Both the position numbers and the translations under genes were made by a program. A stretch of 64,000 nt of DNA from Beggiatoa alba B18LD (GTDB taxonomy: Bacteria > Pseudomonadota > Gammaproteobacteria > Beggiatoales > Beggiatoaceae). Shown here in pieces: positions 2,486 through 31,929 of the stretch. Location of the stretch: the NCBI RefSeq assembly GCF_000245015.1, contig NZ_JH600070.1:62001-126000 (forward strand), in the 5' to 3' direction. The notes below the pieces were generated by a model. It was given only the letters and a program-made list of their open reading frames with translations, made no database searches and was not told the DNA's origin. Position 1 is the first letter of the stretch, and each line of letters begins with the position of its first letter.

Positions 2486-5400
2486 ATGATCGCTTCCAAT
2501 TATCTGAGCAGGTGGACTCTACTTTGTGCGTGGTATTGCACAGTATCCCCTAGAGTCAACTATTTTCTTTCAATTTTCTTGAGCCTTTGGATACTTTGCA
2601 TTGCGCCGTCTGCATCTGCATTAACGTTTATCAATGCACAGGTGGATGGGGCAAGTGTGGATGGTGTAAATGGTCTTGCCCGTCCAAATGGTATTGCTAT
2701 CAGTCCCGATGGTGCATTTCTTTATGCAACGGGTTCTACAGATAACGCGATTAATGTCTTTCAACGTGATACGGTTTCAAGTGCTACAACGGTTGGGCAA
2801 TTAACGTTTGTCCAAACTGTTACCAGTAGTCATATCGCTAATAATGGCTTAATGGGTGCGAACGCTATTGCTGTTAGCCCTGATGGAAAACATGTTTATG
2901 TCACAGGGGTAACGGATAGCAGTTTAACGGTGTTTACCCGAAATACTGCAACAGGCATGTTAAGTCTGGTTGAAGTGCAAAAAGATGGGGTAGGCACTGT
3001 GAGTGCCATGCAAAATGCTAATGTGGTGACTTTAAGCCCTGATGGTACTCGGGTTTATGTGACCTCTCCCACAGATAACGCGCTCAATGTCTTTTCCCGT
3101 GATAGTAATACAGGGTTATTAACCCTATTAGGCGTGCAAATTGATGGCGTGAATGGTGTGAATGGGCTTGCAGGGGCGGCTGATGTAAAAGCGGTGAGTG
3201 ATGGCACGAATACCTTTATTTATGTTGCAAGTACTGTTGACAATGCGGTCAGCGTTTTTGCCAAGCAAGGCAGTAGTGAATTGGTTTTTCTGGGTCTGTA
3301 TCAGGAAGGTGTGAATGATCTTACTGGTTTACAGGGTGCAAATGGTTTGGTCTTTAGCCCGACCAATAATCATTTATATGTTGCCAGTCCTACCAGTAAT
3401 GCAGTCGCCAGTTTTACACGTAATAGCGATGGTACTTTAACGCCGTTAGCGGTTTATACCAATAATGTAAATGGTTTTACAGGATTAGGGGGAGCACGCT
3501 ATTTAGCGACAAACTCAGATGGTTCAAAAGTGTATGTTGCTGGATTTAGCGATAACACCCTTGTTAGTTTAAAACGGGATACCAGTACAGGTCTGTTAAG
3601 TATTGATGATGTTGCTAAACAAGGCACAACGGCAAACACATTGACAGGTGTGTCCGCAATAGCCACCTCAGGCGCGTATATCTATGCAGCGGCTTACTAT
3701 AGCAACGCGGTGAATACCTTCGCAGGTTCTAACGAAAATTTACAAATCACGGCTGTCAGTAGTACCAGTTCTTTATCCGTGAATACGGCATTTACTTATA
3801 CGGCAACTGTCAGCAATACAGGACTTGCCGCTACAAATATCGTTGTTACTAATACCTTACCGAATGGCATTACCCTTAATACCACACAGGCATTACCCAG
3901 TGCATGTGTTGCTCAAACTGCCAGCAGTATTGTATGTAGTGTAAGCACTTTAGCAGAAGGTCAATCGGTTAATTTCGCGCTTCCCCTCACCAGTAGCACC
4001 ACAGAAGGGACATTAACGCTTAAAAGCCAAGTCGTTAGTAGTAAAACAACAACGGCAAAATCTGTTTCTGTTAATGTTGTTGTAGAAACGGTCAAAGTCG
4101 ATTTAGAAATTATTCAAGCCTTTGCCTCACCCTCAACGATTGTTGATATTAATACGAATTTTAGCTATATCATCAGTTTACAAAATAAACAAAACAGTGC
4201 ATCAGGGGTTAAATTAACCGCCACATTACCCAGTGAAGTGAGTTATGTTTCTGGCACACAGGGATGTAATGGTAGTTCTAGCGCAAGTACCGTTACTTGT
4301 AATTTAGGGGTGTTAGATGCATTAGGGAATGCTAGCACCAACGTTACCCTGATTGTTAAAGCAAATAGCCTTTCTACAGGTGCGACAACCAGCTTTAATG
4401 TCTCCAGCAATAATACAGATGCCAGCACAAGCAACAATACAAAAGCAGTGACTGTTAGCATTGTCGGTATCGTTGCAGAGGTTGGGACTAGCATCACTAG
4501 CGACCGCAACAGTGTGTTAGTCGATGAAAATATTACCTACGTTATTACAGCCACGAATAGTGGCCCAAGCAGTACCGCAGCTAATTTGCAGGCAGTCTTG
4601 GCAGGAACGGCAACTATTAGCAGTGTAACTGCCGCGAATGGGACATGTAGCAGTGTTACTAATAACGCATTTACTTGTACCATCGCCGCACTAACTTCAA
4701 CCACAACAGGAAATACAAGCACTGTTACTGTGGTTGCTAAAGCCAATGCATTGGGAACGGCAACGCTACAAGCAACTGTCACCCCGACTGTTTATGACCC
4801 AACAACGGCAAATAATACAGCGACACGTAGCGTTACCGTTACAACACCTGCCGCCGATTTAGGGGTGAGTCTCACAGCCAGCCCAAGCCCTATTTTGGTA
4901 GGGAATAATCTGACTTATACCGCAACAGTTACCAATGCAGGCCCTTCGACCGCAAATACGGTAACGATTACCCAAACCCTCCCAACAGGCACGACAATTG
5001 TCGGAACGCCTAGTATTACAAATGGACAATGCAGCGTTAGTGGTAGCACGGTTACATGTACAGTTAGCAGTTTGAGTAGCAGTGTCAGCCAAAATTCAGT
5101 AGTTTTAACAACTGTCGTAAAAACTAATAATTCTGGTACGTTAAGCAGCACTTTAAACGCGACAGTTGCAACACCGAGTGACAGTAATAGTGCTAATAAC
5201 ACGACCACACTGGCAACAACAGTGACACAATCCAGCGCAGATTTAGCCGTTAGTGCAATCACCGCAACGCCTGACCCTGTCTTAGTCGGTAATTTAATCA
5301 GTTATAACACCACGATTACCAATAACGGCACAGACAGTGCGACTGCTGTTGTTTTAACTCAAACCTTAGAAAGTACAGTTAGCTTTGTATCAACCTCTAA

Positions 5401-8400
5401 TAGCAATTGTGCTCATAATGCGGGTGTCATAACGTGTAATTTAGGCACGATTGCAAACGCTCAAACTCAAACAATCACGATTGTTGCCCAACCCAATGGG
5501 TTAGGGAGTATCGGTTTTACTGCCAAAATCGCCAGTGATTCAGCAGACCCAAATACCGCAAATAATACAAAAACCTTAACCTCACAAGTAACGACACCAA
5601 CAACATTAATTTATGTCGAAAACTTACGCGATGGCAGTAATGCACAGAATTTACAACGGGCAAATGGGGTGACTGTTAGCCCAGATGGTGCTTATGTCTA
5701 TGTCAGCAGTTTTGGAAGTAGTGCCGTCAGTGTTTTCAGTCGCAATGCCAGCAATGCAGGGCGTTTAACCTATCTGAGCAGTGTTATCAATGGAGTCAAT
5801 GGTGTAACAGGTTTATCAGGGGCAAGTAATGCGGTCGTTACGCCTGACGGTAAACATTTATACGCTGCGGGTTATAACGACAATAGTGTTGCTGTCTTTA
5901 GTCGCAATATAACCACAGGGGCATTAAGCTTTATAACCAGTTATAGCGGTTTAGCGGGTGCATTTGCCTTAGTGGCGACAGATAGTTATCTCTATGTTGC
6001 AAATGTCAACGATGATTCCATTACCGTCTTTAGTCGTGATGCAAACACAGGTAATTTAAGCCTTGTTGAAACACAACGTTCAGGCTTACTGGATAATATT
6101 GTTGGCTTAACCTTAAGCCCTGATGGTAAACAATTACTGGCAGCCGCATCCGTCAGCAACAGCATTAATGTTTATAGCCGTGATACCAGTACAGGCAAGT
6201 TAAGCCTCTTACAAACCATCAGCAATAATGCCAACGGGGTAACGGGATTAGGCGGGGTAAGTAGTCTAACAGTAACAACGGATGGTAAGTTTGCCTATGC
6301 CGTGAGTGGCTCAGACAATGCGATTACAACCTTTAGCCGTAATGCAGAAACAGGCGTTTTAAGTTTTATTGAAATGCAACAAGATGGCGTGAATGGCTTA
6401 GATGGATTAAGTGGCGCATTTGCCGTGATTGCCAGCCCTGATGGTAATTATGTCTATGTCACTGCAACCACTGATAACGCCCTTGCTGTTTTTGTCCGCA
6501 ATACCACCACAGGCTTATTAACGTTGCTCAGTGTGCTAACTGACGGGGTTAATAGCGTTGATGGTTTAGCGGGTGCGAGAGGATTAGCCCTAAGCACAGG
6601 CGGTGCTAATATTTACACCACAGGCTTTAATGACAATGCAGTTGCTACATTCCGTATTTCTAGCGCAGATGTTAGCTTAAGCCTACAAGCGAATCCAAGC
6701 GGCTCTTTACTGGTTGGGGCTAATTTAAGTTATATCCTGACCGTGACCAATCGTGGCGCAGATACGGCTACAGGTGTGACCGTGCGAAATACCCTGCCCT
6801 TGGGGGTGAGCTTTGTCAGTGCCAATCCATCACAAGGTGCATGTACACAAGCAAGCAATGTCATCACATGTAACTTAGACAGTTTAGCAACCAATAATGC
6901 AGCGACAATTACGTTGTTAGTGCAAACAGCAAGCGCGGGTAAATTAACCAATACCGCCATTGTCGGGGCTAACCAATTTGACCCAGACAGCACCAATAAC
7001 AGCGCGACGGTAGAAAATACAGCCGCATTAACCGCAGACTTAACGGTCAACATGACTGCAAGCCCTGACCCAGCCAGTCAATATGGTGATTTAACTTACA
7101 CCATTACTCTGACTAATAACGACAGTGTGAACACGGCACAAGGCATTTACATCACCAATGTGTTGCCCGCAACAACAACATTCAACACAGCCCTGATAGG
7201 CACAGATAGCAGTGCGTGTACTTATACCGAAAATTTACACACAGTTACTTGTTATTTAAGCAGTTTACCCGCAGGAAAAACCGCAACCGTCACAATAGTT
7301 GTAACGACCGCAGAAGCAGGAACACTGACTAATACCGTCAATGTCGTTACTGATACCGTTGACCCAACAGCCAATACAGCCACGTTATCCGTAGAAGTCG
7401 TGCTGAATATCATTACTGAAACGGTGGACAATACAGGCAAAACACTCACTAACTACACCATTTCCAGCACAGGCGGTGTACGCAATGGCTCATTTGCAGG
7501 CACGATTGTCAACCAAGGGATAATTTACAGCACAGGGACTAATACGGTTGAAATTCTTGCAGGCGCAGAAGTCCGAGGCGGTGGTAAATTAGGCGGAACT
7601 ATTAATAATTATGGCACTATCCGCAATATGACCTTATTAGCGGGTACAGTCATTAATGGGGGGGTTTTACGTGGCACAATTCACGGCTTCCCCAGTAGTC
7701 CTGCGTTACTACAAGGCGTTATCGTTGGTGCAAACGCACGGTTAGAAAATGTCATTATCAGCCCTAACGTTACCCTCGATTCTAGCGTTGTTTTAGGTGA
7801 AGGCGTGGTCTTCCAAAGTAGCACTAATATTCCTGCAGGCATCGATTTAACCAACTTATATCCAAAGCTGACTGACCCTGTGACGGGTAGCGAAGTTGTA
7901 GATTTAAGCACAGACATTGTGGCAGGAACGGATTTATTATCCGCAATTAATGCCTTACCTGACCTACAAAATTATGGCTTTGTCTTTACCCAAACAGCAA
8001 CAGGCTTAATGATTCTCCCCATAGGCACAGACCATATTGTGGTTATGCCTGTCAGCGTGACACAAGCTAACGCAAACCAAACGGCGGGCATTACCTTAAA
8101 TGTCGATGGCAGTGCCACAATAGTGACTGCAACGCGCCGAGTGATTGTTGTACAACCAGCGGTAGAAGATAGCAGTGCATTACGCACCGCATTAGGACGT
8201 TTAGGGGTAGCAACTTATGAATACCTCATGGACGGCACTTTATACATGCCTATTGATAGCACTGCTTACTTCAAAGCTCGTCCCGCCTTAGTTACTAACT
8301 TAAGCAGTGGTACAACAGGCTTAATTTTCCAAGCCTCCCCCTATGCCAGCAATGTACTAACAACCTTATTTAAATACGGTGCAGTACGGCAACAATACTT

Positions 8401-9439
8401 ATATGGTACACCCGTTGACCGTTCACAACTCAATAACGTGTTACAAGACATTCCTAACGTACAATTAGTACAACTCAATGAAAATGGGACAGGTTTAGTA
8501 CAAATTGGTAGCAGAACCTATATTGTTGTCTTTGATTACATAGTGCGGAAAGGGACTCCAAGCTCTATTACACAATTACAAATTGTCGCTGACCAAAACG
8601 GCGATGGGTCTGATGATGCCTTAGTGGTATATACCAATGGGGATAGACAAATTATTTATGTCATCCCACAACCTGACGTTGCCGAAGATATTCAAGCGAT
8701 TCCTGCGGTTAAAAATGCTAACTACCTTGTCAGCAGTGATGCTGAGGAAAATTTATTACTGGCTCGCAGTAGTAGCCGTTTATACCTCAACCCGACAAAT
8801 ATCGTACAACTTCAATCAGTACTATCACCAAGCATGAGCGTTTATGATGATGGTCACGTGGTCTTTATTACCCCCACCGCACGCCAAGTGACTGCACAAC
8901 CCCTGATTCAAGATATTGATGTCTTTACAACAGGTATCAATGCCTTGGGATTTGATACGGTTATTCAAAATGAAAACGGTAATATTACATTACGCACCAG
9001 TAATCCGTTGGTGAGTAGCGTAGCACGCCCTGCGACAGTCGCAACCGTCCCATTAATCACCATCAGCAATGAGGGAGTCTCTAGCTTAAGCTATATCCTC
9101 CCTAACTTAACCACCCTACGCCTCGTATTCCGCAATGACAATGGCACATTGTGGCAACAATATATCTACCCAGCAGCGAAAGAACCTGACAACTTACGCG
9201 CCTTTTTCCAAGCCATGCCCTCTGTACAAACCGTTACTTTCAATAACGATGGCACATTGACCGTTAAAAATGCGCAGTACAACTTCTCAGGACGGTTTGA
9301 CTATGTTGTGACCGCAACAGGCGTTCCTACCAGTGGCATCCAATTTTCTAGTCAAGCCGATGCGAATGGTGATGGTTTAAGCGACTTTATCGTGACCTAT
9401 GGTAATGGTGACCGACAACTTATCTATCGTTTACCGTAA
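2486..9439 (+). CDS. Giant exported beta-propeller/DUF11 repeat protein
   Basis: This 2317-residue protein begins with a long N-region and a hydrophobic signal ending in PSASA at residue 45. The start has a good ribosome-binding site, AGGAGAG at 2472-2478. Residues about 48-417 form a YVTN/lactonase-like beta-propeller with repeated SPDG..VYV and DNAL.VFSRD blades. Five DUF11-type Ig-like repeats follow (about 420-1035; pattern ADL.VS..ASP.P..VG..L.Y). A second propeller covers about 1040-1390, and two more DUF11 repeats reach about 1640. The last 670 residues start with VDNTGKTLTN, continue through a hexapeptide-like stretch, and hold repeated modules ending in NGDRQIIY or NGDRQLIY after a calcium-type DxNxDGxxD loop. 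The C-terminal part is shared with the next gene, 28 bases downstream, so the two probably form an operon. A surface adhesion or matrix role is inferred. I see no membrane anchor, sortase motif or RTX repeats. Confidence 0.85.
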   Translation: MIASNYLSRWTLLCAWYCTVSPRVNYFLSIFLSLWILCIAPSASALTFINAQVDGASVDGVNGLARPNGIAISPDGAFLYATGSTDNAINVFQRDTVSSATTVGQLTFVQTVTSSHIANNGLMGANAIAVSPDGKHVYVTGVTDSSLTVFTRNTATGMLSLVEVQKDGVGTVSAMQNANVVTLSPDGTRVYVTSPTDNALNVFSRDSNTGLLTLLGVQIDGVNGVNGLAGAADVKAVSDGTNTFIYVASTVDNAVSVFAKQGSSELVFLGLYQEGVNDLTGLQGANGLVFSPTNNHLYVASPTSNAVASFTRNSDGTLTPLAVYTNNVNGFTGLGGARYLATNSDGSKVYVAGFSDNTLVSLKRDTSTGLLSIDDVAKQGTTANTLTGVSAIATSGAYIYAAAYYSNAVNTFAGSNENLQITAVSSTSSLSVNTAFTYTATVSNTGLAATNIVVTNTLPNGITLNTTQALPSACVAQTASSIVCSVSTLAEGQSVNFALPLTSSTTEGTLTLKSQVVSSKTTTAKSVSVNVVVETVKVDLEIIQAFASPSTIVDINTNFSYIISLQNKQNSASGVKLTATLPSEVSYVSGTQGCNGSSSASTVTCNLGVLDALGNASTNVTLIVKANSLSTGATTSFNVSSNNTDASTSNNTKAVTVSIVGIVAEVGTSITSDRNSVLVDENITYVITATNSGPSSTAANLQAVLAGTATISSVTAANGTCSSVTNNAFTCTIAALTSTTTGNTSTVTVVAKANALGTATLQATVTPTVYDPTTANNTATRSVTVTTPAADLGVSLTASPSPILVGNNLTYTATVTNAGPSTANTVTITQTLPTGTTIVGTPSITNGQCSVSGSTVTCTVSSLSSSVSQNSVVLTTVVKTNNSGTLSSTLNATVATPSDSNSANNTTTLATTVTQSSADLAVSAITATPDPVLVGNLISYNTTITNNGTDSATAVVLTQTLESTVSFVSTSNSNCAHNAGVITCNLGTIANAQTQTITIVAQPNGLGSIGFTAKIASDSADPNTANNTKTLTSQVTTPTTLIYVENLRDGSNAQNLQRANGVTVSPDGAYVYVSSFGSSAVSVFSRNASNAGRLTYLSSVINGVNGVTGLSGASNAVVTPDGKHLYAAGYNDNSVAVFSRNITTGALSFITSYSGLAGAFALVATDSYLYVANVNDDSITVFSRDANTGNLSLVETQRSGLLDNIVGLTLSPDGKQLLAAASVSNSINVYSRDTSTGKLSLLQTISNNANGVTGLGGVSSLTVTTDGKFAYAVSGSDNAITTFSRNAETGVLSFIEMQQDGVNGLDGLSGAFAVIASPDGNYVYVTATTDNALAVFVRNTTTGLLTLLSVLTDGVNSVDGLAGARGLALSTGGANIYTTGFNDNAVATFRISSADVSLSLQANPSGSLLVGANLSYILTVTNRGADTATGVTVRNTLPLGVSFVSANPSQGACTQASNVITCNLDSLATNNAATITLLVQTASAGKLTNTAIVGANQFDPDSTNNSATVENTAALTADLTVNMTASPDPASQYGDLTYTITLTNNDSVNTAQGIYITNVLPATTTFNTALIGTDSSACTYTENLHTVTCYLSSLPAGKTATVTIVVTTAEAGTLTNTVNVVTDTVDPTANTATLSVEVVLNIITETVDNTGKTLTNYTISSTGGVRNGSFAGTIVNQGIIYSTGTNTVEILAGAEVRGGGKLGGTINNYGTIRNMTLLAGTVINGGVLRGTIHGFPSSPALLQGVIVGANARLENVIISPNVTLDSSVVLGEGVVFQSSTNIPAGIDLTNLYPKLTDPVTGSEVVDLSTDIVAGTDLLSAINALPDLQNYGFVFTQTATGLMILPIGTDHIVVMPVSVTQANANQTAGITLNVDGSATIVTATRRVIVVQPAVEDSSALRTALGRLGVATYEYLMDGTLYMPIDSTAYFKARPALVTNLSSGTTGLIFQASPYASNVLTTLFKYGAVRQQYLYGTPVDRSQLNNVLQDIPNVQLVQLNENGTGLVQIGSRTYIVVFDYIVRKGTPSSITQLQIVADQNGDGSDDALVVYTNGDRQIIYVIPQPDVAEDIQAIPAVKNANYLVSSDAEENLLLARSSSRLYLNPTNIVQLQSVLSPSMSVYDDGHVVFITPTARQVTAQPLIQDIDVFTTGINALGFDTVIQNENGNITLRTSNPLVSSVARPATVATVPLITISNEGVSSLSYILPNLTTLRLVFRNDNGTLWQQYIYPAAKEPDNLRAFFQAMPSVQTVTFNNDGTLTVKNAQYNFSGRFDYVVTATGVPTSGIQFSSQADANGDGLSDFIVTYGNGDRQLIYRLP

Positions 9440-9467
9440 TTAATGACGGAATACGGGAGTATTTTTT

Positions 9468-12400
9468 ATGCGACAAATTCAGCAATTATTGCTTATTACA
9501 GGCTTATGGCTTGGGATGTTCTCCCTAGCCTATGCACAAGCCAGTTTACAATTTGCCTCTGCTGCTTACGCCGTCAATGAAGCCGATGGCACACTACAAA
9601 TAGTTGTGACACGAGCAGCAGATAGTGTAGGGGCAGTCACCGTAGATTATGCCACTATCGACACAACAGCACTGTCTGGCGTTGATTACACAGGGAAAGG
9701 AGGAACATTGACATGGGCAGATGGCGACTTAACCCATCGAGTGATTGAAATTACTATTCTGACCGACAGCACAACGGAAAATAATGAAAGTTTCGCCGTT
9801 ATTCTGGCAAACCCCAGCGGGAATGCGGTACTAGGAACAAATCTACAAACAGCCATTACCATCGTTGATACCCCTGTCAATGGCGCGGGCAATTTACAAT
9901 TTACAAGCACCACATACACTGCCAAAGAAAATGCAGGGATTGCACAACTTGGCGTTGAACGAATTGGCGGGAGTGTTGGCAATGTTGCTGTGCAATACGC
10001 GATTACAGGCGGAACTGCCGTTGCTAATACCGACTACGTGAATGTACAAGGGACATTAAACTGGAATACAGGCGATGCCCAAGACAAAAATATTGCAATT
10101 CCGCTCCTGCTAGATGACCAACAAGATGGCGATAAAACCCTCGTTTTAAGTCTCAGTACGGCAACAGGTGGGGCAACAGTGGGCGCAAACAATACAACAA
10201 CGCTTACAATTCAAGATGTTTTTGGGACAGTTGTCACCTCCAGCGCAGGTGTTTTAACCTTTAAAACCGCACTAAGCACCGTCAATGAAAACGCAGGCGT
10301 TGCAAACGTAGAAGTCAGCCGACTAGACGGCACACAAGGCAGTGTAACGGTCAGCTATAGCACAATAAATGGAACAGCCATTGCTGGCAGTGATTACACC
10401 CTCACACAAGGCGCGTTAAGCTGGGCAAATGGTGAAAATAACACCAAAACCATCAGCGTGCCCATTCTCACTGATAATAACACCGAAGACGATGAAATAT
10501 TCGCCATTAGCTTAAGTAATCCAACGGGTAACGCTGTATTAGGTATGATTGCCAGCACCAATCTAAAAATTTTAGATGGCACAGGAAATCCAACAACGGT
10601 CGTGATTGGTGATGCAGGAGCTGTACAATTTGAATCAGGTAGCTATACCGTTGATGAAAATCAAGGGAACTTAAACATCAACGTTCTACGTGTATCTGGC
10701 ACTAAAGGAGATGTCCGCGTTAACTACACCATTCAAAATGGAACGGCAACAAATGGACAAGACTTTGTTTTATCCGCAGGGACATTAGTCTGGGCAGACG
10801 GTAACAGCGACGTTAAAACCCTCAACATCACCTTACAAGACGACATCACCGCAGAAGAAAACGAAAACTTTATCATTCAATTATCTAACCCTAGCAATGG
10901 TTTAGTCTTAGGCACACCTGCTGCGGCTAATGTCACCATTCGCGACAATGACGCAACCCGCGTTCAATTCTCCTCCAGTGACTATCTGGTTAACGAAAGC
11001 GGACGCTATGTAAACGTTACCGTTACCCGTCAAGGTAGCAGTCAAGGACGCATCACCGTTAATTATCAAACCAACGCTAATACTGCGATTGATAATAAAG
11101 ATTATATTGGTATTTCTGGATTGATTGTTTGGGAAGATGGTGACGCAAGCAGTAAAGTTTTATCCATCCCCATCAACAACGACACCACCATTGAAGAAAC
11201 CGAAACATTCCGCATTACCCTAAGCAACCTAACAGGAAACGGCACGCTTGGCTCTCCTGCACAAGCAGTCATCACCATTAAAGATGATGATGCCATTGTG
11301 ATTTGCTCCGACCCCCCGCCCAGCGTCATTAACTGCTACTTAGATAACACAGGCAACACCTTAACCAATGTTCGTATTACAAATACAGGCATAGTCTTTG
11401 GTGGACAACTGGCAGGCAAAATTGACAACTTTGGCTCACTAGAAAACGTCACCCTATTAACCAATGCAACACTAAATAACTATGAAGTAGGTGTCGTAAC
11501 TAATCTCTACCTCAATAACTACACCAATGTCACAGGCGGATTTATACAAGGCAGCACCATCGGCATTGGAGAATATCCCGCAACGCTAACCAGCGTCCGC
11601 ATTCTCACTGATAGCTATGTCCAAAATGTCATTATTGAAGGTAACACCATCATAGACACAGAAGTTTCTATGGGAAATCAAGTCCGTTTCCGTCTCAATG
11701 GAAACATTCCGCCCATCGACTTATCCAACCTTCTAGGCTACACCCCCAGCATGGTTTTAGGTCGCTTCGCAATCAACCTCTACACCGACGTGCTAGTCAA
11801 CAGTGTGCGAGGCGGTGTTTTATCCGCACTCAATGGTTTATATGATTTAACAGAAAAAGATTGGTTAATCACCCAAGACAGCGAAAGTGGCTATATTGCC
11901 TTTACCAGCGATAACAAACGCTACAACTTACTACCTACCCGTGTACGTCAAGCCCTAGAAGGTCAAATCATCAATGATATAGACTTAGGTTTAATCATTC
12001 GTGAAGATAACCGCTTTTTAGTAACCACCCATACAGGGCGAGAAGTTACCGCACATCCCGTCATTCAAGATACAACAGGGCTAGAACAAGTTTTAAACAC
12101 ACTTGTCTTACCTGTTTCTAGTATGCAAATGAACGACGAAGGCAATGTAAAGCTAAACTTAGTCAATCAAATCAATGGTATTACTTACTTCAGTATTCGT
12201 GCCGATATCTGCTCTTCCCCAACATCCCGCAGTACATCGCCCGAATTAGGTTTTGACACCTTACCAATCAGCGCAAACTTATACTGCTTAAGCACAGATG
12301 AGAATATGAATGTCTCTGTGAAAAATGCACTAGTTGCTTATTTAGTCTTTAACAATGGACAATCTCGCCAATATCTCTACCCTGCCGCCGCAGATGCCGC

Positions 12401-12644
12401 CGCATTACGTGCACTCTCGCAAGATACCCTGTTATACAAAAATGGCATGGCATTGATACACATGGGCGAAGGCGCAAGTCGTAAAACCTATAAAGGCTGG
12501 CTAACCTACGCCATCACTCAAGGTACTAACCTAAATGGTCATGTTGAAATCTTTGATGTTGATGACATGAACCAAGACGGTTTAAGCGACTACCTTATTG
12601 TTTATCCAAATGGCGATGGACAACTGATGTACAGAGTTAATTAA
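9468..12644 (+). CDS. Exported Calx-beta repeat protein
   Basis: This 1058-residue protein has a clear signal peptide ending in SLAYAQA near residue 25. Five Calx-beta domains run from about 25 to 610. Each opens with a strand such as LQFASAAYAVNE, holds a G.DY...G.L.W.DGD motif, and closes with ENE.F.I.LSNP and a variant of ITI.DDD. Calx-beta domains bind calcium and are common in surface proteins of aquatic bacteria. From about residue 624 (YLDNTGNTLTN) the protein resembles the C-terminal region of the preceding giant protein. It likewise ends in a calcium-like loop (DMNQDGLSD) and NGDGQLMYRVN. GGGAG at 9451-9455 is the likely ribosome-binding site. The two genes are probably co-transcribed and their products may act together at the cell surface, which is inference. 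The A-type palindrome just downstream could end the transcript. Confidence 0.85.
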   Translation: MRQIQQLLLITGLWLGMFSLAYAQASLQFASAAYAVNEADGTLQIVVTRAADSVGAVTVDYATIDTTALSGVDYTGKGGTLTWADGDLTHRVIEITILTDSTTENNESFAVILANPSGNAVLGTNLQTAITIVDTPVNGAGNLQFTSTTYTAKENAGIAQLGVERIGGSVGNVAVQYAITGGTAVANTDYVNVQGTLNWNTGDAQDKNIAIPLLLDDQQDGDKTLVLSLSTATGGATVGANNTTTLTIQDVFGTVVTSSAGVLTFKTALSTVNENAGVANVEVSRLDGTQGSVTVSYSTINGTAIAGSDYTLTQGALSWANGENNTKTISVPILTDNNTEDDEIFAISLSNPTGNAVLGMIASTNLKILDGTGNPTTVVIGDAGAVQFESGSYTVDENQGNLNINVLRVSGTKGDVRVNYTIQNGTATNGQDFVLSAGTLVWADGNSDVKTLNITLQDDITAEENENFIIQLSNPSNGLVLGTPAAANVTIRDNDATRVQFSSSDYLVNESGRYVNVTVTRQGSSQGRITVNYQTNANTAIDNKDYIGISGLIVWEDGDASSKVLSIPINNDTTIEETETFRITLSNLTGNGTLGSPAQAVITIKDDDAIVICSDPPPSVINCYLDNTGNTLTNVRITNTGIVFGGQLAGKIDNFGSLENVTLLTNATLNNYEVGVVTNLYLNNYTNVTGGFIQGSTIGIGEYPATLTSVRILTDSYVQNVIIEGNTIIDTEVSMGNQVRFRLNGNIPPIDLSNLLGYTPSMVLGRFAINLYTDVLVNSVRGGVLSALNGLYDLTEKDWLITQDSESGYIAFTSDNKRYNLLPTRVRQALEGQIINDIDLGLIIREDNRFLVTTHTGREVTAHPVIQDTTGLEQVLNTLVLPVSSMQMNDEGNVKLNLVNQINGITYFSIRADICSSPTSRSTSPELGFDTLPISANLYCLSTDENMNVSVKNALVAYLVFNNGQSRQYLYPAAADAAALRALSQDTLLYKNGMALIHMGEGASRKTYKGWLTYAITQGTNLNGHVEIFDVDDMNQDGLSDYLIVYPNGDGQLMYRVN

Positions 12645-27642: not shown

Positions 27643-27951
27643 ATGAGCAAATCTATTGAAAAAAAAGCGACTTCTCAACAAGTCCGTGTTCGTTATGAGC
27701 AAACAACTGCTATTTATGCATCTCAATTTGTATTGAGTGTGGCAGGGGAAGAGGTGATTATTAATTTTTCTTCGGGCAGTTTGCCTGACCCTGTAACAGG
27801 GGAAGCGCATTTGCCCGTACATACTCGTATCGCGTTATCACCGGAGGGCGCGAAACGCTTGGTTAATTTGCTAAATCAAGCTTTAGCCAGCAATAACAAT
27901 AGTGAAACGGGTTCTAGCGGAGCCGCTCGCCTACCGACTTTAAATAGCTAA
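27643..27951 (+). CDS. DUF3467 protein
   Basis: This 102-residue protein matches the DUF3467 pattern throughout: VRVRYEQTTAIYASQFVLSV, then EEVIINFSSG, then HTRIALSPEGAKRLVNLLNQAL. The family resembles a small beta-rich domain found in bacteria and archaea, and its function is unknown. It has neither signal nor membrane segment. It ends 4 bases before the HlyD-like adaptor gene, so the three genes 27643-31929 form a tight operon. That position suggests a cytoplasmic chaperone or regulator for the membrane pair, or possibly their substrate. This is inference. Confidence 0.85.
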   Translation: MSKSIEKKATSQQVRVRYEQTTAIYASQFVLSVAGEEVIINFSSGSLPDPVTGEAHLPVHTRIALSPEGAKRLVNLLNQALASNNNSETGSSGAARLPTLNS

Positions 27952-27955
27952 TTTT

Positions 27956-29722
27956 ATGCAAGTATCTCCCGTTGACTTATTAACCCTACATACGCAATTA
28001 CAGCAATTACGCGATAAGCAGAACGAGCGCGAAGCGTGGTTGCTGGAGTTGTTACAGTTATTATTAGGTTTAACCAATGCCGCTGGGGCAGCTTATGCCT
28101 TGCCTGATAAAACAACGGGACTATTAGTGCTTGCACCGCGCATTTTGTCGCGTCAAGCCTTAAGCTGGCGGGCGGATTTAGAAAACTTATTATTGCAAGA
28201 GATGCAACAGGCTTGTGAGCAAAACCGCGTCCGCTTAACGCAGTTAGACCAACATCGGCAAATTTGGTTAATCGCTGCTCCCGTACCACAAGCGCAGAAG
28301 CAGGAAGCGATTTCCCTCGTGTTGTTATTGGGCGGTTATCAGTCTTTAGAAACGTTTGTAACGATTTTACAGTTAGTCGCAGGTTATGCAGGTATTGATC
28401 AGTTACAATCCCGCTCGCAACAACAAATTCTACAGTTATTCATAGAGTTGTTACATGTTGGACAGGTCACACAAGCCCAACAGCATTTATTAACGCGCTT
28501 ACAGCATTTATGCAATTGTCAGCGGGTTATTTTAGGGTATCGCCAAGGACATCATTGTCGAATTCAAGCGATGTCAGAAATCGCCGAATTACCCAAACAA
28601 GTCGATTTAGGCTATGCCTTAGAATCCTTAATGGATGAAACCGCAGAGAAGCGACAAGCCATTATTGCCACAACAGGCGATGCCCATCGAATTTCCCCCC
28701 ATGCGCAAAAAATTCTGGGTTTAACCGCAACGCAACAAGTGTGGAGTTTACCGCTAGCGCATCATCAAAAATTGCCAGTGCAATATGTCTTAGTCCTTTT
28801 GTGGGCAAGTCCGCCAGATCCAACGGTTACACCATTATTAATGCAGTTAAGTCACACATTAGGCATTGCTTTAACGACCTTACGGCGGATTAAACAACGG
28901 CGATGGCACGCGACGCTTAACACGTTAAAACGGCGGTTTTTCTGGGGCTTGGGGATAGCCGTGTTGTTATTTGTGCCGTTATGGATTCCTGTCACCCATT
29001 CTATTGCGGGAAAAGTGACGTTACAGCCCGATACCCGTCGTTTTATAACCGCGCCTTTTGCGGGAATTTTAAAAGCAACGCATCATGAAGCGGGCGACGT
29101 GGTGAAAGCGGGCGATGTATTAGCGCAATTAGATGAACGCGAAATTCAATTAGAATTAACCAGCTTAACCGCTGAACGGAATCGTTTAGCAAAACAAAAA
29201 GATGCCAGTGCCGCCGCTAAAGATACTGTTGCGACACAATTAGCACAATTGGAAAAAGAACGCGCAGAATCGCAAATTGCCCTTTTAGAATATCGAATTG
29301 CCAATTTAGACATTAAAAGCCCGATTGATGGTTTAGTAGTCAGCGGTGATTTACAACGGGTACAAGGCAGCCCCGTCGATAAAGGACAAAGCTTATTTGA
29401 AGTCGCGCCTTTAGAAACTATGCGCGTCGAGTTGGCTATTCCTGCGGAAGATATTGCCTATATTCGTCCTGACATGCCTTTAAGCATAGAATTAGATGCT
29501 TACCCGCAACAACAGTGGCAATTAAACGTGCAACGCATTCAACCGCGTGCGACTGTCCGCGATAGTGAAGCCGTGTTTATTGTTGAAACGACTTTAACCA
29601 ATACGGACAATAAATTAAGAGCAGGTATGAAAGGCGATGGCAAAATTGCAGCAGATGCACAACCTTTGGGATGGGTGTTATTTCATAAAGTCTGGGAAAA
29701 GGTTTTACGATGGCTATATTAA
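27956..29722 (+). CDS. Membrane-anchored HlyD-like adaptor with GAF-like N-terminal region
   Basis: In this 588-residue protein the first 320 residues are cytoplasmic and look like two GAF-type folds (about 1-170 and 175-320); that assignment is tentative. A basic stretch and a single transmembrane segment (about 325-345, FWGLGIAVLLFVPLWIPV) follow. The rest is a periplasmic membrane-fusion part: a lipoyl-like half (RRFITAPFAGILKATHHEAGDVVKAGD), a short coiled-coil hairpin (about 400-445), the second half (LDIKSPIDGLVVSGD) and a beta-barrel domain. Adaptors of this kind link an inner-membrane transporter to the outside, but no ABC or RND pump is encoded here. It overlaps the next gene by 13 bases, which implies translational coupling with the M50 protein. 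Confidence 0.8.
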   Translation: MQVSPVDLLTLHTQLQQLRDKQNEREAWLLELLQLLLGLTNAAGAAYALPDKTTGLLVLAPRILSRQALSWRADLENLLLQEMQQACEQNRVRLTQLDQHRQIWLIAAPVPQAQKQEAISLVLLLGGYQSLETFVTILQLVAGYAGIDQLQSRSQQQILQLFIELLHVGQVTQAQQHLLTRLQHLCNCQRVILGYRQGHHCRIQAMSEIAELPKQVDLGYALESLMDETAEKRQAIIATTGDAHRISPHAQKILGLTATQQVWSLPLAHHQKLPVQYVLVLLWASPPDPTVTPLLMQLSHTLGIALTTLRRIKQRRWHATLNTLKRRFFWGLGIAVLLFVPLWIPVTHSIAGKVTLQPDTRRFITAPFAGILKATHHEAGDVVKAGDVLAQLDEREIQLELTSLTAERNRLAKQKDASAAAKDTVATQLAQLEKERAESQIALLEYRIANLDIKSPIDGLVVSGDLQRVQGSPVDKGQSLFEVAPLETMRVELAIPAEDIAYIRPDMPLSIELDAYPQQQWQLNVQRIQPRATVRDSEAVFIVETTLTNTDNKLRAGMKGDGKIAADAQPLGWVLFHKVWEKVLRWLY

Positions 29723-31929
29723 TCGATACATCGCCCGCTACAGCAGAAACGCCCGCCTCTGTTAGCAATGCTCAAGCCGCGCCGCAGGCAATGAATTTAA
29801 AATTACGTCTGCGTGATGACTTAAGTTTTACCTTTCAAAGCTATGGCGAACGTCCCTGCTATCTGATTGAAGACAGTTTATATGGAAACTACTTTCAAAT
29901 TGGTGTTGTCGAATACGCTTTTATTCAACAACTAGATGGCGAACAAAGCGTCGAACAAGCGGTGCAAGTCGCGCCCGAATTAGAGAGCCAACAAATTCAA
30001 CAGATTTGTTACTGGCTCATCCATTCCCAACTGGTTTATGTCTGGAATGCCGAAAAACAAATCTGGTTTTTACCCAAACCGCCTCACGACAAAGTACAAG
30101 CATGGGCAGGGCGATTAAATACCCTTTTCATTAAAATTCCCTTGGGCAGTCCTGACCGCTGGTTAAATCGCTTACTGCCTTATACGCGCTGGCTTTTAGG
30201 CGTGCCCTTCTTCCTACTTTGGCTCTTGATTTGCGGGACAGGGCTTTATCTTGTGATGGCGCAATTTGACCGCTTTGTGCATAGCGCGAGCAGTCTCCTT
30301 CTGCCTCATAATGCCTTTTGGCTACTGATTGCATGGATTATCGTGAAAGTGCTACACGAAACTGCGCACGGACTCGTCTGCAAAAAATACGGCGGTTATA
30401 TTCATAATGCAGGCATCATGCTGATTTTATTCATCCCGATTGGCGCGTATATGAACGCCAACGCCAGCTGGCGACTAACTTCACGCTGGCAACGGATGCA
30501 CGTTTCTGTTGCAGGCATGTACGCTGAACTCTTTATTGCAGGAATTGCCGCATGGATTTGGGCGCAAACAGAAACAGGCGTGCTCAATTACTTAAGCTAC
30601 AACATCGTCATTATTACCAGCATTTCCACCCTACTTTTTAACGCCAACCCCCTGATGCGCTTTGACGGTTACTACATTCTAAGCGACCTCCTGAATATCC
30701 CAAATCTCTACCTATCAGGACAACGCTACATCCGTTACCTCAACCACCGCTATATTCAAGGGCGCACCATTACACCACCACAATGGAAACCTGAACACAC
30801 CCCCCTGATTAAAACCTATGCCATTGCCTCCCTCATTTGGCGATGGGTGGTTATTATTGGCTTACTGGTTGCCGCGAATCACCTTTTTTATGGCGCGGGC
30901 ATTCTCATTGCGACCATGGCAGGTATCAGCGTGCTCATTCTTCCCCTGATTCGTTTTAGCATGAGTTTACACAAAGACCCCCAACGCGGGGCGGTACTAC
31001 GTCACTTAAGCCTACTCTTTCTTTTCGTAAGCCTTGCCAGCCTATTACTACTGACCCAAGTTCACTGGTCGCGCACACTCACCGCCCCCGCTGTGTTTGA
31101 TTACGCCAACGCACAAATTGTCCGCACAGAAACCGCAGGATTTATTAAAAAAATTCACGTTAAAACAGGGGATATTGTCGCAAAAGATGACATACTGCTT
31201 GAACTAGATAACCCTGATTTATATCAAGAAGAAAAAGACTTAGCCCTACAAATTCAACATCGAGAACTACGCCGTCAACACGCCATCACACAAGGACAAC
31301 TAAGCGATGCACAAGGCGAAATTGAAAAACTACAAGATTTACAACATCAATACCAAGAAAAACAACTACAAATTGCCAGTCTAACCCTGAAAGCCAATCA
31401 AGCGGGGACTATTATCGCCCCTGATTTAAGAGATTTACTCGGCGTTTACACCCAACGCGGGACAGAAGTACTAACCCTTGCAAACCCTCAAGCCCTAGAA
31501 CTCAAGGCATCCATTCCCCAAACCGACATCGACGCATTTCGGGCATATGAAGGGCAAACCGTACAAATTTACCGCCATAGCCAACCCTTACACACCTTTA
31601 ACGCAACCTTAAGCCGTGTCAACCCCAGCGCGAGCCAAACCATTCTACACCCTGCGTTAACCGTTTTAGCGGGTGGAGAACTCCCCGTTAAACCTAAAAC
31701 CCAACAAAGCGAACGCGACTCTTCCGCGAAAAAAGACAATAGCGATAACTATGAATACCTCGCCCCCCGCTTTACCGCGACCATCGCATTATCTACAGAC
31801 ATTCCCAAAAATATTTATGCAGGCGAAACTGCGACGATTTATCTCGCCAGCCCACCCCAAAGTTTAGGGGAATTATTATGGATAGGAATAGAACGGTATA
31901 TAAAACGCTTGCAGAGTCAGGCGACGTAA
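29710..31929 (+). CDS. PqqD-like/M50 metallopeptidase/HlyD fusion membrane protein
   Basis: This 739-residue protein starts inside the 3' end of the adaptor gene, with AAAAGG before the ATG. Residues about 30-115 resemble PqqD-type peptide-recognition domains (Y.LIEDSLYGNYFQIG...). Several transmembrane segments follow. One carries the zinc site HETAH near residue 217 and a later one carries NPLMRFDGYYILSD, the second metal-ligand motif of site-2 (M50) proteases. After about residue 460 comes a periplasmic lipoyl/HlyD-like part (TAGFIKKIHVKTGDIVAKDD) with a coiled-coil hairpin (about 500-560). This layout matches the putative peptide zinc metalloprotease family linked to peptide export and maturation. 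Together with the adaptor it probably forms a membrane complex acting on a peptide or protein. Substrate unknown. Confidence 0.85.
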   Translation: MAILIDTSPATAETPASVSNAQAAPQAMNLKLRLRDDLSFTFQSYGERPCYLIEDSLYGNYFQIGVVEYAFIQQLDGEQSVEQAVQVAPELESQQIQQICYWLIHSQLVYVWNAEKQIWFLPKPPHDKVQAWAGRLNTLFIKIPLGSPDRWLNRLLPYTRWLLGVPFFLLWLLICGTGLYLVMAQFDRFVHSASSLLLPHNAFWLLIAWIIVKVLHETAHGLVCKKYGGYIHNAGIMLILFIPIGAYMNANASWRLTSRWQRMHVSVAGMYAELFIAGIAAWIWAQTETGVLNYLSYNIVIITSISTLLFNANPLMRFDGYYILSDLLNIPNLYLSGQRYIRYLNHRYIQGRTITPPQWKPEHTPLIKTYAIASLIWRWVVIIGLLVAANHLFYGAGILIATMAGISVLILPLIRFSMSLHKDPQRGAVLRHLSLLFLFVSLASLLLLTQVHWSRTLTAPAVFDYANAQIVRTETAGFIKKIHVKTGDIVAKDDILLELDNPDLYQEEKDLALQIQHRELRRQHAITQGQLSDAQGEIEKLQDLQHQYQEKQLQIASLTLKANQAGTIIAPDLRDLLGVYTQRGTEVLTLANPQALELKASIPQTDIDAFRAYEGQTVQIYRHSQPLHTFNATLSRVNPSASQTILHPALTVLAGGELPVKPKTQQSERDSSAKKDNSDNYEYLAPRFTATIALSTDIPKNIYAGETATIYLASPPQSLGELLWIGIERYIKRLQSQAT

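Follow-up and report, generated by a model that had tools for sequence, protein, structure and literature searches.

The closest described counterpart of the operon analysed here is the locus reported by Kamneva et al. in 2015 (PMC4452313), which combines SecA_DEAD, GAF-HlyD, M50-HlyD and HlyD proteins, in some cases with OEP, and whose biological role was given as 'completely unknown'. The sections of that paper on which we draw propose that the M50 protein is the pore and SecA the ATPase, regard the GAF protein as possibly regulatory and name no substrate; in its main text, the words DUF3467, LEPR, DUF4347 and PqqD do not occur. The paper also reports the locus, SecA included, for Methylobacterium extorquens AM1. 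Thus, the statement in the preliminary description of this DNA that the function of such a gene set had not been described has to be withdrawn as far as the locus itself is concerned. As presented in those sections, the 2015 locus resembles ours in the GAF-HlyD, Peptidase_M50-HlyD and HlyD/biotin_lipoyl proteins, the occasional presence of OEP and the phyla concerned, whereas no secondary SecA was detected in the branch to which our locus belongs, and our locus includes DUF3467. The M50 leader proteases of daptide and epipeptide systems (NF041824, NF058609) share the M50 fold, and the daptide profile extends over the PqqD-like region of our protein as well, but this protein scores far below the cut-offs of these models, is fused to HlyD and is associated with giant proteins rather than with short precursors. 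Type I secretion systems (HlyB-HlyD-TolC) likewise use HlyD and TolC parts, and their secretion signal is C-terminal. The likeness to our locus comprises the HlyD-type adaptors, a TolC-type channel and a giant repeat protein as the likely cargo; in contrast, here no ABC gene is seen with the operon, the candidate signal is N-terminal, and the protease is fused to an adaptor. Finally, LEPR-XLL proteins (NCBIfam NF012209, a model 24 residues long), whose name refers to the motif only, are mentioned just in passing in the open-licence papers that we found, none of which links the motif to the locus. Another planctomycete N-terminal surface signal, according to the passage of PMC8567305 that cites Studholme 2004, is PF07595; a Pfam scan of 8 LEPR-type N-termini gave no match to it.

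The window, that is, the whole stretch of 64,000 nucleotides of Beggiatoa alba B18LD DNA that was analysed, contains three coupled plus-strand open reading frames, with a 4-base gap followed by a 13-base overlap (Table 1). The main labels of the preliminary description hold for all three: the coupled trio itself; the small DUF3467 protein, recognised by Pfam; the single-pass adaptor with a large GAF-like part, which is supported by the Pfam matches of relatives and by the predicted fold; and the membrane metallopeptidase with a HlyD-like part, in which both the HETAH and NPLMRFDGY motifs are present and which matches HlyD_D23 (5.7e-15) and Peptidase_M50 (9.5e-9). Its PqqD-like label finds support in the family, with PF05402 found in 11 of 45 relatives (E <= 0.1), and not by the Pfam scan of the window's own protein, which gave no PqqD match. 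In our view, the likely role of this operon is to supply the inner-membrane core of a secretion apparatus dedicated to a giant surface protein that carries an N-terminal tag.

Table 1. Features of the operon and copies of a repeat in the window (positions are those of the window).
Feature	Position	Strand	Basis
DUF3467 gene, 102 aa	27643..27951	+	PF11950 1e-8; no hydrophobic (transmembrane) segment
GAF-HlyD adaptor gene, 588 aa (protein 2)	27956..29722	+	HlyD_3 2.2e-21; predicted structure, mean pLDDT 91.2
First GAF-fold domain, residues 6-150, predicted cytoplasmic side	27971..28405	+	4g3v_A Z 14.9, rmsd 2.3, 132 aligned, residues 4-151
Second GAF-fold domain, residues 148-320	28397..28915	+	3ci6_A Z 15.1, rmsd 2.7, 146 aligned, residues 148-314
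Single transmembrane segment, residues 327-352	28934..29011	+	hydropathy 2.17
HlyD-type periplasmic adaptor part, residues 345-572	28988..29671	+	MacA in 9qgy_G Z 18.8, rmsd 3.6, 220 aligned
PqqD-like/M50/HlyD gene, 739 aa (protein 3)	29710..31929	+	Pfam, NCBIfam profile, alignment; predicted structure, mean pLDDT 88.4
PqqD-like N-terminal part, about residues 24-120	29779..30069	+	PF05402 in relatives, best 9.8e-7; NF041824 alignment
Site-2-protease core, residues 197-332	30298..30705	+	RseP orthologue 7w6y Z 10.4, rmsd 3.5, 134 aligned
HETAH motif	30355-30369	+	within site-2-protease core
NPLMRFDGY motif	30646-30672	+	within site-2-protease core
HlyD-type adaptor part, residues 451-724	31060..31881	+	MacA in 9qgy_G Z 16.9, rmsd 3.6, 218 aligned
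Copies of palindrome ACCTGCTAGGTTTTNAAAACCTAGCAGGT	12705, 13515, 16236, 26981, 39562, 45899, 47743, 52470, 56751, 58951		

Based on the structure matches, protein 2 combines two GAF-fold domains with a single membrane segment and a HlyD part. The Pfam scan of the window's own protein gave no GAF match, and PF01590 is recognised in 23 of 40 family members (E <= 0.1); the GAF plus HlyD protein of the 2015 locus is thus found here by fold and through relatives. In protein 3, no PqqD fold appears among the structure matches, which carries no meaning because the list is filled by matches of the HlyD part. The protease part has the hallmarks of site-2 proteases, an HExxH motif and a distal aspartate in an NPxxxxD-type motif, within membrane helices. 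Residues H216, E217, H220 and D319 are invariant in 20/20 aligned relatives (alignment A1), leaving the active site intact; a second alignment (A2; D319 in 45/45, H220 in 44/45) was set aside for judging the conservation of D319, since its loci had been fetched with a pattern containing that residue. Residues 53-414 align with the NF041824 daptide metalloprotease profile (2.8e-42), and the epipeptide YydH/LiaK model is also matched (2.2e-6). Together with the PqqD-like part, these matches would suit a RiPP-like reading, in which the M50 protein would be the protease, and the HlyD parts the exporter, of a small modified peptide. We regard this as highly improbable: the daptide match reaches 145.2 bits against a curated cut-off of 300, none of the neighbouring genes that were scanned is annotated as encoding a modifying enzyme (precursor frames below about 45-80 aa were covered unsystematically), and the strong association, described below, is with giant proteins.

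A full-type M50-HlyD protein is present in 20 of the 57 related genomes searched, ten of them at 43-100% identity (own genome included) and ten divergent at 27-33%; at the divergent loci L041-L044, some of the neighbours are a SecA-like protein and giant RTX-repeat proteins. The nine Thiotrichaceae rows of the M50 tree group in a single clade (100/100), and a linked SecA-like gene is absent from all of them. Beyond these relatives, a scan of one genome per species yielded at least 585 relatives, from which the best 80 loci, belonging to Pseudomonadota, Planctomycetota, Verrucomicrobiota, Thermodesulfobacteriota and others, were surveyed up to 10 kb on each side with simple ORF calling. Genes for GAF-HlyD were found in 60, M50-HlyD in 67 and DUF3467 in 8 of the best 80 loci; SecA-like, short HlyD and OEP genes were found in 32, 41 and 26, respectively.

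The proposal that the three genes belong together is borne out by the recurrence of the parts together; as to gene order, the trio does recur in some genomes, but is adjacent and in the same order at only 3 of the 20 relative loci examined (L032, L033 and the divergent L044). At L043, DUF3467 was found through the Pfam model and the GAF-HlyD reading frame is broken. DUF3467 and GAF-HlyD are paired away from the M50 gene in genomes G005, G015 and G019, and other close relatives carry the pair, or GAF-HlyD alone, elsewhere in the same genome. Among the best 80 loci, four have the trio in the same order (L074, L079, L083 and L084), L074 being the contig of G025 again. DUF3467 exceeds the Pfam cut-off in 11 of the 57 relatives, and each of these 11 belongs to the 20 that have M50-HlyD, but it is also present in 3/14 control genomes and is therefore not specific to the system.

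Several observations on individual loci accompany this survey. The M50-HlyD proteins of L046-L050 (G009, G026, G012, G002 and G035) form a separate, long-branched group of the same family (tree, three rows), in which GAF-HlyD usually does not adjoin M50-HlyD. A Desulfobulbaceae locus has a YdbH-like, not SecA-like, gene after M50-HlyD (L083:12193-14202), and in a Pseudomaricurvus locus a SapC family protein (PF07277, 1.9e-73; L116:5560-6303) is encoded between the giant and OEP genes. A PDB sequence search with DUF3467 returned short, low-quality stretches in RecA fusion entries, none passing on its own, and these were ignored.

Regulatory functions are common among GAF domains and site-2 proteases. 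The two proteins might accordingly be read as an S2P-type protease and a GAF sensor with a regulatory or envelope-stress role, which control adhesin expression and take no part in transport, a reading that agrees with the regulatory role suggested for the GAF protein in the consulted sections of PMC4452313. However, both proteins end in HlyD adaptor domains, and the linked OEP and third HlyD genes of the best 80 loci point to a conduit, so that we judge a purely regulatory function unlikely.

Evidence for a secretion apparatus comes from giant proteins that begin with the LEPR-XLL motif. Three of four giant neighbours scanned pass the NF012209 cut-off, and the motif pattern lies within the first 120 residues of 21/658 open reading frames, against a mean of 0.05 and a maximum of 1 in 200 shuffles. 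On the other side, a LEPR-type N-terminus occurs at only 21 of the best 80 loci, many of which are cut by contig ends. Among the 57 relatives, NF012209 is matched above the cut-off in 16, namely 15 of the 20 genomes with M50-HlyD and one of the 37 others (a frame of 178 aa in G042). Five M50-positive genomes lack a match (G009, G012, G015, G033 and G043), some of them perhaps owing to assembly breaks; of these, G015 has all three operon genes. At the phylum scale, 398 genomes contain an M50 alignment in 93 cases, NF012209 in 54 and both in 52. Only 2 of the 305 genomes without M50-HlyD have the motif, G332 in a 64-aa frame and G265 in an assembly that is 86% complete. The Fisher p of 8e-37 for this co-occurrence, uncorrected for relatedness, overstates the evidence, as the genomes are related. 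Of the 14 control genomes, 7 gave an NF012209 match at E <= 1, 1 gave one above the cut-off and 0 gave one at E <= 0.01.

The association depends on the strength of the M50 match. Genomes with strong matches (>= 370 bits) have LEPR-XLL in 35/37 cases, whereas those with weaker matches only have it in 17/56 and lack it in 39, which suggests that the weaker M50-HlyD proteins often serve something else; the genomes with M50-HlyD and no LEPR-XLL match (41/93) mostly fall among the weak ones. Physical linkage points in the same direction: 38 of the 82 LEPR-XLL genes are on the same contig as a listed M50 gene, and for at least 33 of the 82 the distance to a listed M50-HlyD gene is 10 kb or less (chance about 0.8% per gene), a lower bound because the M50 list used was incomplete. 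Collectively, the association of LEPR-XLL with M50-HlyD is well supported, and the substrate is likely a giant protein with an N-terminal LEPR-XLL motif. The leader consists of a basic tail followed by about L(L/F)ExLE(P/D)R(V/I)L(L/F)SA.P, and the consensus extends beyond the search pattern, with E at -2 in 25/31 and P at +10 in 20/31. A hydrophobic stretch of the signal-peptide kind (above 1.6) is found in the first 70 residues of 1/31 LEPR-XLL N-termini and in 83% of 69 short-HlyD/OEP proteins.

Our genome has one LEPR-XLL gene, starting at G000:C2:2719274. This candidate substrate gene, where the preliminary description saw no obvious one, lies 2.6 Mb from the operon, a distance that counts against the proposed link. 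Two assembly gaps of 100 N interrupt it (L185:18211-18310 and L186:2679-2778); its frame runs without a stop for about 7,445 codons before the first of them, and the figure is therefore not the full length of the gene. The protein scores 30.1 bits against the NF012209 cut-off of 17 (residues about 12-33) and contains DUF4347 (5e-47), DUF11 and many SdrD_B repeats. A short, exported HlyD protein of 265 aa is encoded upstream on the opposite strand, and the gene directly downstream codes for a 749-aa OmpA+OEP protein, a TolC-type lipoprotein channel; the further HlyD/biotin_lipoyl and OEP genes of the 2015 locus are thus present, but at the giant locus 2.6 Mb away. The same layout is found on one contig of G001, with a 9,219-aa frame. 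In this genome, the complete set comprises DUF3467, GAF-HlyD and M50-HlyD, plus the unlinked short HlyD, the TolC-type lipoprotein and the giant LEPR-XLL/DUF4347/SdrD_B-repeat protein. Of the preliminary proposal of a peptide maturation-export system, export with leader processing is retained, whereas the likeliest substrate is the giant LEPR-XLL protein and not a small peptide.

What drives such export appears to differ between branches. In line with the remark that the operon comes without a pump, no ABC exporter was recognised among the window frames scanned, but the SecA-like protein at 32 of the best 80 related loci is a candidate motor; 25/33 SecA-like frames keep Walker A and DEAD under a strict pattern. 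Our genome encodes one SecA of 929 aa, its nine close M50 relatives likewise have one ordinary SecA each, and a search with an intact SecA-like protein found no extra SecA in these ten genomes, although a strongly diverged copy could be missed, since the degenerate copies of G027 and G032 escaped the search. The secondary SecA_DEAD protein of the 2015 locus is thus without a detected counterpart here. The same query found an extra SecA only in G043 and G044, and G010 and G016 gave additional helicase-like matches below 20 bits. Thus, the Thiotrichaceae branch of the window seems to lack a dedicated motor. As a separate observation, two SecA-like proteins of about 500 aa beside GAF-HlyD/M50-HlyD/DUF3467 have neither Walker A nor DEAD (L043:7365-8864, L044:1005-2540) and are apparently pseudo-ATPases. 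DUF3467 was considered as a stand-in for SecA and rejected for want of loci: among the best 80 with both GAF and M50 found, those with DUF3467 number 5 without and 1 with an intact SecA, and those lacking DUF3467 number 33 and 18.

Since the scans around the operon turned up no energy source, the window branch could instead use an unlinked ABC (type I) transporter, with the operon proteins as accessory adaptors only. Type I systems, after all, also rely on HlyD and TolC components. Pfam recognised no ABC exporter among the window frames scanned, nor was one recognised at the operon or beside the giant gene among those examined, and related loci have the SecA-like protein instead; on this survey of linked genes, we consider the alternative very unlikely.

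We return to the secretion of the giant protein by the operon proteins themselves, which would receive the tagged chain at the inner membrane, likely recognise its leader and feed it into a HlyD-TolC conduit. The likeness of M50-HlyD to the daptide leader protease model and the PqqD matches of its relatives speak for this reading. The PqqD-like domain of M50-HlyD may bind the LEPR-XLL leader in the cytoplasm, and the site-2 protease probably cuts within this leader or close by. Together, the TolC-type protein and the three HlyD parts would provide the path from the periplasm to the outside, and a hetero-oligomeric HlyD tube is consistent with these parts, the third HlyD protein included. The tandem GAF part could sense a cytoplasmic signal and gate export. 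In many relatives, the SecA-like ATPase would push the chain, whereas the window branch would have to depend on ordinary SecA or on some other energy source that is unlinked. A more specific version, which we put forward as doubtful, makes M50-HlyD the inner-membrane gate, with its PqqD-like part reading the leader, its M50 part cutting it and a chain of many thousand residues passing into the mixed HlyD tube with no dedicated ATPase, powered by ordinary SecA or by its folding on the outside. The idea of an M50 pore is that of Kamneva et al. (PMC4452313); the reading of the leader, the substrate and the branch without an extra SecA are new here.

Apparently, a secretion module described in 2015 without a known cargo and a giant-protein motif without a known exporter are two halves of one system. 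Both are open to experiment, with a candidate signal of about 20 residues and a candidate protease whose active-site residues are defined. If this is right, some of the largest bacterial proteins are exported without an ABC exporter across Pseudomonadota, Planctomycetota, Verrucomicrobiota and others, in one branch seemingly with no dedicated motor.

Two further features of the window deserve mention. The adjoining genes at 2486-12644 encode a DUF11/beta-propeller protein of 2,317 aa and a Calx-beta protein of 1,058 aa, whose secretion signals look ordinary; both (2486-9439 and 9468-12644) were considered as substrates and rejected, as they have the look of ordinary secreted proteins, with hydrophobic N-termini (by eye) and no LEPR-type start. 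In addition, the 29-base near-perfect palindrome ACCTGCTAGGTTTTNAAAACCTAGCAGGT occurs in 10 copies with up to 3 mismatches, against 0 expected from shuffles, and looks like an intergenic repeat family.
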